From positions 1 through 56,394 of the forward strand of contig VGZG01000013.1 of the NCBI GenBank assembly GCA_016872675.1: 56,394 bases of DNA. Direction: 5' to 3'. The notes under the pieces are model-generated. The model was not told the DNA's origin and ran no database searches. It saw only the letters and a list, made by a program, of their open reading frames with translations. This document shows, piece after piece, positions 18,454 through 52,861 of this stretch; the stretch's first letter is position 1, and each line of letters begins with the position of its first letter. Made by a program: the position numbers and the translations under genes. Origin of the DNA: Planctomycetota bacterium. GTDB lineage: Bacteria > Planctomycetota > UBA1135 > UBA2386.

Positions 18454-21400
18454 TCACTGCGGCAGCGCGGCGAGCGCCTGCTCAGCGAACGTCGCCGGGT
18501 CGACCTTGCTCCAGTACTGCACCACCTTGCCATCCGGGCCGATCAGCGCGGCAGCGCGACGGGCGAACTTCGCGTCGGCCGCGTCCGCGGCGCCGTAGGC
18601 CTGCGCCAGCGCGCGATCGACGTCGCACAGCAGCGGGAACGGGAAGCCGTGCTTCTGCGCAAACGCAGCGTTGGCGGCGGCGGCGTCGACCGACACGCCG
18701 AGCACGACGCAGCCGCGGTCCATGAAGTCGGCGAAGCGATCGCGCAGGCCGCAGCCCTGGGCCGTGCAGCCGGGCGTGTCGGCCTTCGGGTAGAACCAGA
18801 CCAGCACGTGCTTGCCGCGGTAGTCGGCGAGCGCGCGCGTCGCGCCGGTGGCGTCGGCGCAGGCGAAGTCCGGCGCGGCGGCGCCGCGCTGTAGCTTGGC
18901 GCCCGGCGTCGTCGCCACCGCCGCGGCGCCCGGAGCCGCGTCGCCGGCGGCTTCCGCGGGCTTCTCGGCAGCCTTCTCGGCCGGCTTCTCCGCGGCCTCG
19001 GCCGGCGTCTCCGCTGCCTTCGGCGCCGGCGTCGGCGCGGGCTTGACGTGCGCGTCGACGTAGCTCGGCGCGAACGGCAGCTTCTCGGCCTCGCGCTCGT
19101 GGAACGGCACGCCGTCGGTCATCCACTTCGGCGCGACCTCGCCCTTTAGGTGGTGCGCGAAGTACTCGGCCATGCGCCGCGACCAGTCCTTCATGTTGGC
19201 GCGGCTGCGCAGGCCGTGGCCCTCGCCGTTGTAGTTGAACAGGTAGCTCTCCTTGCCCAGTCGCCGCAGCGCCGTGAAGTACTCGATGCCCTGCGTCCAC
19301 GGCACCGCGCCGTCCTGGTCGTTGTGGAGGATCAGCACCGGCGTCTTCACCTTGTCGGCGAAGTGGATCGGCGAATTCTCCTGGTAGCGCAGCGGGTACT
19401 CCCACGGCGTGCCGCCGATGCGCGACTGCGTCATCTCGTACTGGAACTGCCGCGACATGCCCGACTCGTAGCGAATGCCGCCGTACGCAGAGAGCATGTT
19501 GCTCACCGGAGCGCCGCTCTCGACGGCGGCGAAGATGTGCGTGCGCGTCACCAGGTACGCGGTCTGGTAGCCGCCCCAGCTGTGGCCGGCGGCGCCGATC
19601 GCCTTCTCGTCGACGAAGCCCTGGGCGATCAGGTGCTGGACGCCGCTGACGACGCACTTCACGCACGACGTGCCTGGATAGCCGACCTCGTAGACGACGT
19701 CGGGCATGAACCACAGGTAGCCGTTGCTGACGTAGTACGCGGCGTTCGGCGACGTGCCAGGCGCCGGCGCGACGTAGTTGTGCAGCCCCTGCGTCATGCG
19801 CTCGTAGAAGTAGACCATCATCGGGTACTTCTTCGTCGGGTCGAAGTCGTCGGGCTTGACCAGCACGCCCTTGCGCTTGCCGCCGTCGCCGTCGATCCAG
19901 TGCACGAGTTCGGCCTTGCCCCAGCGGTACTGCTGCTGCTGCGGGTTCGCGTCGCTGAGCCGACGCGCATCGGTGAAGTCGGCGGCGACGGTCCACAGGT
20001 CGGGGAACTCGGCGAACGAGCCCTGGGTGAAGAACAGGCGGCTGCTCTTCTTCGGCCGCGCGACGTCGCCGAAGTTCTTGTCGCCGTAGAGCAGCTTCTG
20101 CGGCCGCTGCTGCCGCGTGATCGAGTCGGCGAAGAAGCCCTCGGCCATGGTGTCGAGGTTGGTCGCCGCCAGCAGCAGCTCGTCGTCGAGCCCGAGCTTG
20201 TCGTCGTCCCGCGGCAGCGACTGGATGCGCAACCGCGTGCGGTTCTGCCGGCCGAAGCCGTCGGTCGCGCAGACGGCGGCGCCGGTCTCCGGGTCGACGC
20301 GCCAGACGTCGAACTCGTCGTACAGCAGCACGGCGGCGTCGCCCTCGGACCAACCAGCGAGGCCGAACGCCGCGTCGGGCTCGGGGTGGTCGTCCTGGTA
20401 GTTGTGGAACGGCACGCCGAGCCTGCCGGTCAGGTCGCGCGTCGCGCCCGTGGCGAGGTCGTGGCACTGCCAGTGGTAGCCGGCGTCGAACCAGACGAGG
20501 TACTTGCCGTTGGGCGAGTTGGTGACGTTGCCGCGGAAGCGCGTCAGCAGCTTCTTGCGCGCGCCGGTCTGGCCGTCGACGACGTAGACGTCGCTGTAGC
20601 GGCCGTCCCACGTCACCTCCTGCTCGTAGGGCTTGCTGTCGGTGCCGAGCAGCCAGCGGCCGTCGGCGCCGATCGGCCGCAGCGACCGCAGGGCGTCGTC
20701 ACCGAGCGCCGCAACCTCGTCCTTCTGCCGGCGATACACCGCGGTCCACTGCGGGTTGCGTTCGCCGTTGCCGCGCTTCTGCTGCATCGTCTGCAGCAGG
20801 CCGTCGCGCCAGTTCCACAGGTCGAGCGTGACCTTGTCGTCCGGCAGGATCGGCAGCGGCTCTGGCGCTGGCGCGTTCTGCACCTCGAACGTCAGCGTCC
20901 AGCCGTCGCGCGTGAACGACGCGCCGCCCGCCGGCCGCTTGCCCGCCGGCATGCCGGGACCGCCGGCCCACGCGATGCGCTTGCCCAGCGCGGCGCCGCC
21001 GTCCCACAGGTAGATGTCGGCGACCGGCTTGTCGTCGGCGAACGTCTCCTTGTCGCTGGTGAACGTCAGCGCCGTCTCGCTGCGATCGAACTGCGCGCCG
21101 CCGATGCGCGCGATGCCGTCGTGGACGCAGACCGGCTCGCCGCCTTCGGGCGCCTGCACGAACAACCCGTGCTTGCTGTCCTTCGCCGGCTTCTTCGCCG
21201 AGGTCTGGAACCACATCTTCTTGCCGGTGCGCGACAGCCCGTAGCCAACGACGTCGGCGTACGCGCGCTGCTCGCCGGTCGCGAGGTTGCGCACGACGAG
21301 CTCGGTGCCCTCCGGACGCTTGGCCTCGAGCGGGTCGGTCGCAGCGCCGCCGCGCCGGCCCTCGCCGCGCCGTGCGCCCTCGCCGGCCGCCGGCGTCTCG

Positions 21401-22347
21401 GCGTTGGCGGTCTCGCCAGCCGCGCCTTCCGCCGGCTTGGTCGCGGCGGGCGTGCTCTCGGCAGGCTTGGCCTCGGCGACCGCCTGCGGTGCGGCCTTCG
21501 TCTCCGCCGGCGCCGGCGTCGCGGCCTTCGCTTCGCCGGGCTTCGCCGCCTCCGCCTTGGCCTCGCCGGCATTCGCCTCGGCGGGCTTGGCCGCCTCCTC
21601 GCCCTTGCCTGCTTCGGCCGGCTTGGCGTCGGCCTTCGGCTCGTCCTTCTTCGCCGCGGGCTTCTCCTGGTGCAAGAACAGCAGCGGCTGCTCCGGCGCG
21701 AACGCCGCCGACTTCAGCTTGCCGAGCTTCTCGACCTTGCCGGTGGCGAGTTCGAGCAGCATCCACTCGCGATCGCGCGCCGCCGCGGCGTCATCGCCGT
21801 CATTCGCGCCGCCGGCAGCGCCACCGCCACCGCCCGCGGCCGGCGGGCCACCCGCGCCGCCGCCGCCGCGACGGCCACTGCCAAACGCGCCCGCGCCACC
21901 GCGCCCGCCCGGACCGCCGCCCGCGCCACCCCGGCGCGGCGGCGCCTCTTCGCCCTCCGCCGGCTTGCTCACCTCGCCGGCTGGCTTGTTCGCTTCCTTG
22001 GCCTTCTTGCGCAGCTCGTCGATCTTCTTGGCACGCTCCTCCACCTTCGACTTGCCGGCGGTGAACAGCGCGAAGCGGCCATCGGCCGAGAACTTCGCGC
22101 CGCTGCCGAAGTCGTAGCGGTACGCCTTGTCGCCAGTTGTCTGCTTGATCGCGAGCGCGCCGTCGCCCCACTGCGGCTCGATCTGGAACGCGACCCAAGC
22201 GCCGTCCTGCGTGTAGGTTTGCCCGCGCAGCGACTTCCAGCCGTCGTAGTCGTCGTGGGTCAGCGGGCGACGATCTTGCGCCGCCAGTTGGGCGGCGACG
22301 GCGAGTAGGACAAAGGCGGAGACGGAATGGACCGAGGTCGGGCGCAT
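18454..22347 (-). CDS. Secreted S9 (prolyl oligopeptidase) family peptidase fused to PrxQ-type peroxiredoxin
   Basis: A continuous 1297-residue frame. Order: signal peptide (1-24, cleavage near LAAQ); beta-propeller-like region interrupted by a charged helix (101-135), a Gly-rich segment (138-186) and an Ala/Lys/Glu/Pro-rich segment (229-338); an alpha/beta hydrolase domain with GHSWGGYQ (Ser923), DQDGAVP (Asp1012) and GEGHGLR (His1044), the S9 triad; a second Ala/Pro/Glu-rich linker (about 1090-1148); and a Bcp/PrxQ thioredoxin fold with PGCTAQGC, giving peroxidatic Cys1194 and resolving Cys1199. It should be exported. Peptide cleavage and peroxide reduction are known for the separate families; why they are joined is unknown. 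Single transcription unit. Confidence 0.93.
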   Translation of the reverse strand: MRPTSVHSVSAFVLLAVAAQLAAQDRRPLTHDDYDGWKSLRGQTYTQDGAWVAFQIEPQWGDGALAIKQTTGDKAYRYDFGSGAKFSADGRFALFTAGKSKVEERAKKIDELRKKAKEANKPAGEVSKPAEGEEAPPRRGGAGGGPGGRGGAGAFGSGRRGGGGAGGPPAAGGGGGAAGGANDGDDAAAARDREWMLLELATGKVEKLGKLKSAAFAPEQPLLFLHQEKPAAKKDEPKADAKPAEAGKGEEAAKPAEANAGEAKAEAAKPGEAKAATPAPAETKAAPQAVAEAKPAESTPAATKPAEGAAGETANAETPAAGEGARRGEGRRGGAATDPLEAKRPEGTELVVRNLATGEQRAYADVVGYGLSRTGKKMWFQTSAKKPAKDSKHGLFVQAPEGGEPVCVHDGIARIGGAQFDRSETALTFTSDKETFADDKPVADIYLWDGGAALGKRIAWAGGPGMPAGKRPAGGASFTRDGWTLTFEVQNAPAPEPLPILPDDKVTLDLWNWRDGLLQTMQQKRGNGERNPQWTAVYRRQKDEVAALGDDALRSLRPIGADGRWLLGTDSKPYEQEVTWDGRYSDVYVVDGQTGARKKLLTRFRGNVTNSPNGKYLVWFDAGYHWQCHDLATGATRDLTGRLGVPFHNYQDDHPEPDAAFGLAGWSEGDAAVLLYDEFDVWRVDPETGAAVCATDGFGRQNRTRLRIQSLPRDDDKLGLDDELLLAATNLDTMAEGFFADSITRQQRPQKLLYGDKNFGDVARPKKSSRLFFTQGSFAEFPDLWTVAADFTDARRLSDANPQQQQYRWGKAELVHWIDGDGGKRKGVLVKPDDFDPTKKYPMMVYFYERMTQGLHNYVAPAPGTSPNAAYYVSNGYLWFMPDVVYEVGYPGTSCVKCVVSGVQHLIAQGFVDEKAIGAAGHSWGGYQTAYLVTRTHIFAAVESGAPVSNMLSAYGGIRYESGMSRQFQYEMTQSRIGGTPWEYPLRYQENSPIHFADKVKTPVLILHNDQDGAVPWTQGIEYFTALRRLGKESYLFNYNGEGHGLRSRANMKDWSRRMAEYFAHHLKGEVAPKWMTDGVPFHEREAEKLPFAPSYVDAHVKPAPTPAPKAAETPAEAAEKPAEKAAEKPAEAAGDAAPGAAAVATTPGAKLQRGAAAPDFACADATGATRALADYRGKHVLVWFYPKADTPGCTAQGCGLRDRFADFMDRGCVVLGVSVDAAAANAAFAQKHGFPFPLLCDVDRALAQAYGAADAADAKFARRAAALIGPDGKVVQYWSKVDPATFAEQALAALPQ

Positions 22348-51226: not shown

Positions 51227-52861
51227 TCAGAACAGCCGGACCTCAGCGCCGCGGCTCGTCGCGATGCCCGAGGCGACCCCGGCGTCGAACACGAACCACT
51301 GGCTGTACAGCGTCAGGCCGCTGAGCGCCGGGATCGCCGGCACGGCTACCTTGAGCGTGCCGTAGCCGGCGCCGGCGACGCCGGCCGCGCCGTTGAGCGG
51401 GATCGGCACGATCGTCTCGCCCGTGCCGAGCGCGACGCTGACGTTGACGCCGGCGAGCACGGTCGCCGCCGGGGCCATCGACAGCACGAACATCGACAGC
51501 GCGCCGCCGACGGCGTTGCTGACGCCGAGCTTGAAGTCGACGTTGCCGAGGTTCGCCGGGACCTCCGCCATCGCGTTCGGCACGCGACCGCCGGAACCCG
51601 CCGAGCCGAGGCCGTACTGGAAGCCGCCTTCGGGCAGCAACTGGCTGCGCAGCGTCGGCCGCGTGAACGGCGGGAGCCCCTGCGCGACGCGCGGATCGGT
51701 GAGACCGTTCTGCAGGAAGTTGAGCAGGTCGTTGGCGGCCTGCGGCGGCACGTTGAGCGGCAGCAGCAGCGGGTCCTTGTTCTGGAGGTTGGGGCCGCCG
51801 CCGCCGAGGTAGAAGCCGAACACCTGCTGCAGCGAGGTGAACTGGCCGTTGTGCATGAACGACGTGCGCAGGCCGACGTTGCGCAGGCTCGGCACCTTGA
51901 ACTTGCCGCCGTCCGTGGCGAGGCCGGTCACCGCCTGGCGACCGATGTCCTGCGCGATCGGGCGCAGGCCGAGGTTGCGGAACTGGCGGTCGCTGAACAG
52001 GCCGGGCGTGTGGCAGAGGTTGCAGCGGCCCGGGCCGTTGAAGACGTTGAGGCCATTCTGCTGCTGCGGCGTCAGCGCCGCCGGGTTGCCGGCGACGAAC
52101 GCGTCGTACGGCGTCTGGTTGGGGACCAGCGTGCGCTGGTACGCGGCCAGCGCGAAGGCGATGCGCGCCGACGTGATGTCGGTCGTGCCGAACGCCGCCT
52201 GGAACAGTTGCGGGTAGGTCGCGCCGCCGGCCACCGCCGCGGCCATGTCGGCCGGCAGGTTGGTCGCCAACGCCATCGGCTTCGCCGTGCCGAGCTTGGC
52301 GACGACCTGCGCGAGCGTGCGCGCGTCGTGCGCCATCTCGCCGTGATCGAGCAGCGGCCCGAGCGCCTGGTTCTCCAGCGCGCCGCCGGTCGGGATCAGC
52401 GTGACGCTCGTGTCCGGATCGACGAAGTTGGTGCGCGCGCGGCCGTCCCAGAATAGCTCGGGAAACCACGCCGCCGTCAGCGGGCTCGGCGCCGCGCGCC
52501 TGGTGACCTGCCGGCCGAAGCCGAACAATGCATCGGACATGTAGAGGTTGTTGGCGTCGCTGCGGCTGATGCCCGGCGAGCCGAAGCTGTCGTCGGGCGA
52601 CGGCGTGACGCCGTCCGGGCCTGGGTGCGGCGTGCGGCGCACGTCGCCGCCGCCCTGGCTGAAGGTGTGGCAGGTGCCGCACACGACGCGGTTGTTGGTC
52701 GACATCTGCTCGTCCCAGAACAGCAGCTTGCCGAGCGTCGCCTTGGCGGCGGTCGTCGGGTTCTGCGGCGGCACGGGCTGCGGCGGCAGCGGCTGGTTCT
52801 GCGCGGCGAGGGCAGTCGCGAGCAGGGACAACGAGAGTACGGCGATGGCGTGGCGTTGCAT
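51227..52861 (-). CDS. Secreted di-heme cytochrome c peroxidase-type protein with C-terminal beta domain
   Basis: 544 residues. Signal peptide 1-20 (AQ cleavage), then CGTCH at 61-65 and CNLCH at 280-284, two c-type heme sites in the CcpA/MauG layout, with WFPELFWDGRA and VPSLRNVGLRTSFMHNGQF as family blocks. The region from about 430 (NVDFKLGVSNAVGGALSMFV) to the C-terminal EVRLF is an added beta domain like that on the CocE-type hydrolase at 30692-32797. It would reduce peroxide or oxidise a partner in the periplasm or at the surface. ATG at 52861 is fixed by the signal peptide. Confidence 0.9.
   Translation of the reverse strand: MQRHAIAVLSLSLLATALAAQNQPLPPQPVPPQNPTTAAKATLGKLLFWDEQMSTNNRVVCGTCHTFSQGGGDVRRTPHPGPDGVTPSPDDSFGSPGISRSDANNLYMSDALFGFGRQVTRRAAPSPLTAAWFPELFWDGRARTNFVDPDTSVTLIPTGGALENQALGPLLDHGEMAHDARTLAQVVAKLGTAKPMALATNLPADMAAAVAGGATYPQLFQAAFGTTDITSARIAFALAAYQRTLVPNQTPYDAFVAGNPAALTPQQQNGLNVFNGPGRCNLCHTPGLFSDRQFRNLGLRPIAQDIGRQAVTGLATDGGKFKVPSLRNVGLRTSFMHNGQFTSLQQVFGFYLGGGGPNLQNKDPLLLPLNVPPQAANDLLNFLQNGLTDPRVAQGLPPFTRPTLRSQLLPEGGFQYGLGSAGSGGRVPNAMAEVPANLGNVDFKLGVSNAVGGALSMFVLSMAPAATVLAGVNVSVALGTGETIVPIPLNGAAGVAGAGYGTLKVAVPAIPALSGLTLYSQWFVFDAGVASGIATSRGAEVRLF

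Follow-up and report, generated by a model that had tools for sequence, protein, structure and literature searches.

The two cysteines of E. coli BCP are spaced five residues apart, and the same spacing is found in the peroxiredoxin domain described here. Selenocysteine (Sec)-containing peroxiredoxins are already known (PMC1794560), and Sec is derived from Cys in most families with rare selenoproteins. In the S9 peptidases, the subfamilies S9A, S9B, S9C and S9D have the motifs GGSXGGLL, GWSYGGY, GGSYGG and GGHSYGAFMT, respectively, at the catalytic Ser (PMC12871690). The peptidase and the peroxiredoxin each belong to a well-known family; their combination in one protein, and the history of that combination, appear to be new and undescribed. 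We found no relevant description of a peptidase-peroxiredoxin fusion in the open-access literature, in agreement with an earlier note on this DNA whose author knew of none, and automatic annotation pipelines may already list the architecture.

The fusion gene and its parts

The window, the whole stretch of 56,394 nucleotides analysed here, contains the fusion gene at positions 18454..22347, and this gene and all features given below lie on the minus strand. It starts with ATG and encodes 1297 aa in a frame without interruption, in which an apparent signal peptide is followed by an S9 peptidase, an Ala/Pro/Glu tether and a PrxQ-type peroxiredoxin (Prx). Pfam assigned Peptidase_S9 to residues 892-1069 (E = 1.4e-29) and AhpC-TSA to residues 1155-1277 (E = 3e-32), both exceeding the curated cut-off. 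The earlier note had proposed peptidase, tether and peroxiredoxin in one frame, and this is borne out by the ORF, by Pfam and by the 12 homologues described below. The residues that it named, Ser923, Asp1012, His1044, Cys1194 and Cys1199, are each found exactly at that position.

Inspection of the N-terminus by eye suggests a probable Sec signal peptide at residues 1-24 (MRPTSVHSVSAFVLLAVAAQLAAQ; 22276..22347), with an n-region, a hydrophobic stretch and an AxAQ-type site, and with no lipobox Cys. The N-termini of the fused homologues, inspected in the same manner, resembled that of the window. Most likely, the fusion protein is exported as a putative Sec substrate.

The S9 half (residues 25-1106; 19030..22275) consists of a putative beta-propeller part and a C-terminal alpha/beta-hydrolase domain, according to Pfam, a structure model (pLDDT 78) and a Foldseek fold search, which returned S9 peptidases including 8wt1 as well as dipeptidyl peptidases IV (DPP4). 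The Ser-Asp-His order within the alpha/beta-hydrolase domain, a feature of S9 membership, is present as Ser923 in AGHSWGGY (19579..19581), Asp1012 in NDQDG (19312..19314) and His1044 in GEGHG (19216..19218), each invariant in all 81 aligned homologues. Many confident beta strands were modelled in the N-terminal part, and the Foldseek matches extended over ~650-700 residues with TM ~0.5. The model was confident except in two low-complexity insertions of the propeller part, both modelled as disordered with pLDDT <50. One is Gly/Arg-rich (residues 124-188, model residues 100-164; 21784..21978) and the other is Ala/Lys/Pro/Glu-rich and fast-evolving (residues 238-334, model residues 214-310; 21346..21636). 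By sequence profile, the nearest solved peptidases were 8wt1 (Geobacillus S9 carboxypeptidase) and 7ep9 (Fusobacterium). The motif at the Ser, AGHSWGGYQT, matches none of the four S9A-S9D motifs in PMC12871690, and for this reason no subfamily among these was assigned.

The flexible Ala/Pro/Glu/Lys tether (residues 1103-1151; 18895..19041) was recognized from its length and composition. Across the fused family it measures 49-79 aa and keeps its richness in these four residues, and its sequence is not conserved. It was disordered (pLDDT ~30) in a model of the catalytic domain, tether and Prx made with 11 sequences, of which only the Prx and tether were usable, the truncated S9 part being poor.

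The PrxQ-type domain (residues 1152-1297; 18457..18894) is supported by Pfam, by a pLDDT of mostly 81-92 and by Foldseek matches to Bcp/PrxQ structures. The PrxQ motif Px(3)(T/S)xxC is present as PKADTPGC, and Arg1263/1264 is conserved. The peroxidatic Cys1194 in TPGC (18766..18768) is found in all 13 fused proteins, the resolving Cys1199 at +5 (18751..18753) in 11, being replaced by Ala in the homologues L118 and L119, and a third Cys, Cys1241 (PLLCD), in all except L118. Besides the resolving Cys, L118 is devoid of the active-site Thr and of two other conserved residues, and it may be degenerating. In addition, L118 and L119 carry WFCP where the other fused proteins have WFYP, and this new Cys, eight residues before the peroxidatic one, is perhaps a substitute resolving Cys. 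The earlier view that both halves look catalytically intact therefore holds, as judged from these residues, for 11 of the 13 family members, the window among them, but not for the two in which the resolving Cys is gone. This loss indicates that not every member depends on two-Cys peroxidase activity.

The fused Prx domain did not reach the cut-offs of the NCBIfam PrxQ equivalogs (107 of 260 bits for NF053650 and 93 of 140 bits for NF006960), and by these scores it is related to them but outside them. A search of plasmids with the Prx domain gave ordinary bcp/peroxiredoxin matches only, all of <60% identity.

Distribution, origin and selection

Only the peptidase part served as the query in a search of 84,980 species genomes, so that the result is not biased towards fusions, and the whole frame of each match was then checked for Prx. 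The 11 closest matches, with 67-93% identity over the S9 segment, came from Planctomycetota-type MAGs. In all 10 of these with a complete 3′ end, Prx follows the tether in frame, and in the eleventh closest (L007) the contig ends inside the tether. No Prx domain was found in the next five matches (54-57%), which belong to the same Planctomycetota group, or in the 64 remaining S9 homologues from Acidobacteriota, Bacteroidota, Gemmatimonadota, Pseudomonadota and others, its absence being uncertain for two unfused homologues that run off contig ends (L080 and L032). Two genomes encode a fused paralogue alongside an unfused one (L008/L013 and L009/L014).

A whole-genome search found the fusion in 8 of 8 genomes of the window's genus and in 2 of 5 other genomes of its family, and no fused match in the 3 other genomes of the family or in 8 genomes from the order's other families. 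This search added the fused proteins L118 (genome G002) and L119 (genome G008, 5′ end cut). The total is thus 13 fused proteins including the window, that is, 12 homologues in 12 other genomes, from at least three genera; all family members are from uncultured MAGs.

The domain order is the same, and in frame, in these 12 homologues. They contradict both observations that the earlier note had named as fatal to its proposal, namely a frame break between the domains and halves that are always separate genes. The chance that an assembly or frame artefact has joined two genes is practically nil, since 12 other genomes, originating from different projects, contain the same in-frame fusion. Purifying selection on both halves also contradicts this explanation, and nothing was found in its favour. 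The sharing of the in-frame order by 12 independent genomes, together with this selection, shows that the fusion is neither chance nor assembly error, and at the sequence level the join is genuine and conserved.

Selection was assessed by pairwise Nei-Gojobori dN/dS of closely related pairs, separately for S9, Prx and the tether. In these pairs the ratio was well below 1 in both domains. For the window and its homologue L001, dN/dS was 0.23 for S9, 0.19 for Prx and 0.38 for the tether, and the tether, the highest of the regions, reached 0.84 in other pairs; these values are rough because codon bias at 72% GC lowers dS. The substitution pattern indicates that both halves are under purifying selection and that the tether varies freely.

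The peptidase-part tree places all fused proteins in a single clade (SH-aLRT 100), of which the only other member is the truncated L007, and one change explains the fusion. Judged from this single, 100%-supported clade and from the absence of Prx in the nearest Planctomycetota relatives and in the 64 distant homologues, the fusion likely arose once.

The genes flanking the fusion are conserved in their order. The conserved neighbours are proteins without a Pfam match and EF-G, and a cyclophilin gene adjoining the fusion is common only to the window and L001 in the stretches seen; the neighbourhood was accordingly rejected as a clue to function. Elsewhere in the window, a gene for a di-haem cytochrome c peroxidase / MauG-like protein (Pfam CCP_MauG; 51227-52861) encodes another putative peroxide-related protein. 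Among the unfused homologues, three from Cyclobacteriaceae-type Bacteroidota (L057, L058 and L068) have a separate Tpx-type thiol peroxidase gene 0.1-0.95 kb past the end of the S9 gene.

Kinship of the Prx domain with probable selenocysteine PrxQs

Nine relatives with the fusion also have a canonical PrxQ as a gene of its own, for which no signal peptide is evident. The fused copy thus comes on top of the canonical one, which would be expected of a protein acting in a different compartment. A stand-alone canonical PrxQ was not found in the window's own genome (G000), which may be a gap because this genome is 95% complete. In the Prx tree, whose root is uncertain, the fused domains cluster together (99/99), and this group is united with short Sec-PrxQs (98/95) apart from the canonical PrxQ, a kinship that the earlier note did not recognize. 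An origin of the fused Prx by duplication of the cytosolic PrxQs found in these genomes was rejected, as the latter form a separate group of the tree.

The Sec-PrxQ set consists of four genes (L091-L093 and L117) in three genomes of other families of the same order (G018-G020), and two PrxQ genes with in-frame TGA are present at the L091 locus. In all four short PrxQ genes TGA is located exactly at the peroxidatic position (TPG-U), and downstream of it is a SECIS-like hairpin with an invariant loop, CGUGAUC. In this hairpin 91.7% of cells were paired, compared with 8-47% in slid controls, and two pairs were changed on both sides, a covariation that is suggestive and not decisive with only four sequences. 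The TGA and the hairpin make it probable that these short PrxQs are selenoproteins. At the peroxidatic position of the window and of ten other fused genes compared, the codon is TGC (Cys), and inspection by eye indicated that the window does not preserve the hairpin stem of the Sec-PrxQs.

In G018, one Sec-PrxQ combines a signal-peptide-like N-terminus of its own with a spacer rich in Ala, Pro and Ser. Putative export of such a PrxQ is thus not limited to the fusion. It is possible, from these features, that the G018 protein represents an exported precursor of the fused domain.

Two thioredoxin-like proteins of the window's genome (L106, G000:C30, and L108, G000:C4) likewise contain an in-frame TGA, within a WxxWUGPC-type motif (DFWGFWUGPC and DFWGDWUGPC, respectively). 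Their TGA codons suggest selenocysteine use in the very organism from which the window derives.

Possible function and comparison with known systems

On balance, and with modest confidence, we favour a reading in which an exported S9 peptidase carries an independent, tethered peroxidase that lowers peroxide locally, the peroxidase having been gained by single-origin capture of a short PrxQ. The signal peptide would send the S9 peptidase, presumed to be an oligopeptide-cutting and propeller-gated enzyme, out of the cytosol, and the peroxiredoxin would hang at its C-terminus on the disordered tether of 49-79 residues as an independent peroxidase module. Cys1194 would reduce H2O2 or organic hydroperoxides, Cys1199 would resolve it by forming a disulphide within the molecule, and the oxidised peroxiredoxin would be recycled by a thioredoxin-like protein outside the cytoplasm. 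The fusion would thereby give the peroxidase an export signal and keep peroxide low around the peptidase and its peptides, with no allosteric coupling assumed; most likely, the tethered peroxidase would bring peroxide removal to the site where the peptidase works. A single joining event would have placed a short PrxQ related to the Sec-PrxQs behind an S9 paralogue that was exported beforehand. The earlier note had offered two meanings, protection of the secreted activity from peroxide and coupling of protein turnover to oxidative damage outside the cytosol, and either may apply.

The variable tether without a conserved contact motif, the loss of the resolving Cys in two members and the existence of a related, putatively exported Sec-PrxQ as a separate gene are all compatible with another view, in which Prx became fixed by accident, with export through the S9 signal peptide as its sole gain and no functional link to proteolysis. 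The fusion has, however, never been re-split in 13 members of at least three genera, which suggests some value in the link, and we consider such hitch-hiking doubtful, though not far-fetched. Analogy with another S9 enzyme suggests a combined repair and disposal system, in which the S9 half would preferentially degrade oxidised peptides outside the cytosol and the Prx half would remove the oxidant, but we regard this as unlikely. AARE/APEH, an S9 enzyme, acts on oxidised proteins according to two reports (PMC9845386, PMC8745263), and the S9 fold and triad are present in the fusion; nevertheless, the motif at the Ser is unlike those of S9A-S9D, orthology of the S9 half with AARE is unsupported, and unfused S9 paralogues that are close kin of the fused ones have no Prx.

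Control of the peptidase by peroxide was also considered. The tethered Prx might sense peroxide and oxidise the peptidase, turning it on or off, for example at a CVKC pair (Cys895 and Cys898; 19654..19665) located 25-28 residues ahead of Ser923, and in the model the long flexible tether would make such contact possible. Cys895 is essentially limited to the Planctomycetota group in the 81 aligned rows, and the CxxC ahead of the Ser occurs in 13 of them, all from that group. Nevertheless, it is not confined to fused proteins: the pair is also present in the unfused relatives L012, L014 and L015 and is incomplete in the fused L006 and in L007. This distribution weakens the idea of a redox switch, which we regard as very improbable, and a CVKC switch arriving with the fusion is unsupported, as the pair does not track the fusion. 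A bolder proposal, in which a captured Sec-type PrxQ went from Sec to Cys within an extracytoplasmic proteolysis-plus-peroxidase enzyme and the peroxidase directly regulates the peptidase or acts on its oxidised substrates so as to shape them, seems decidedly unlikely as a whole.

If the tethered-peroxidase reading is true, one lineage of bacteria has peptide breakdown outside the cytoplasm physically linked to peroxide removal, an arrangement of which we found no description. The fusion would then be a clean natural case of a peroxiredoxin changing compartment by gene fusion and, together with its Sec-PrxQ kin, a natural case of selenocysteine/cysteine exchange at the peroxidatic site. It also raises the question of the reductant of an extracytoplasmic peroxiredoxin in Planctomycetota.

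Compared with the S9 (prolyl oligopeptidase) family, the window protein shares the Ser-Asp-His order, the C-terminal alpha/beta-hydrolase and the strand-rich N-terminal part, but differs by AGHSWGGY, by a peptidase part of ~1100 aa with low-complexity insertions and by the C-terminal Prx. With PrxQ/Bcp (Xanthomonas PrxQ, 5iiz, and the BCP in 9a4d) it has in common TPGC, the Cys at +5, the conserved Arg and the Prx fold, whereas the fused Prx is ~5 residues shorter before the conserved Arg, has Cys1241 (PLLCD) and is joined to a putatively exported peptidase. The Sec-PrxQs (L091-L093 and L117) are the nearest kin of the fused domain, sharing the short form and PLLCDT, with 46-48% identity for L091-L093. 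In contrast to the fused Prx with its TGC, however, they have an in-frame TGA and a downstream hairpin, and they stand alone.
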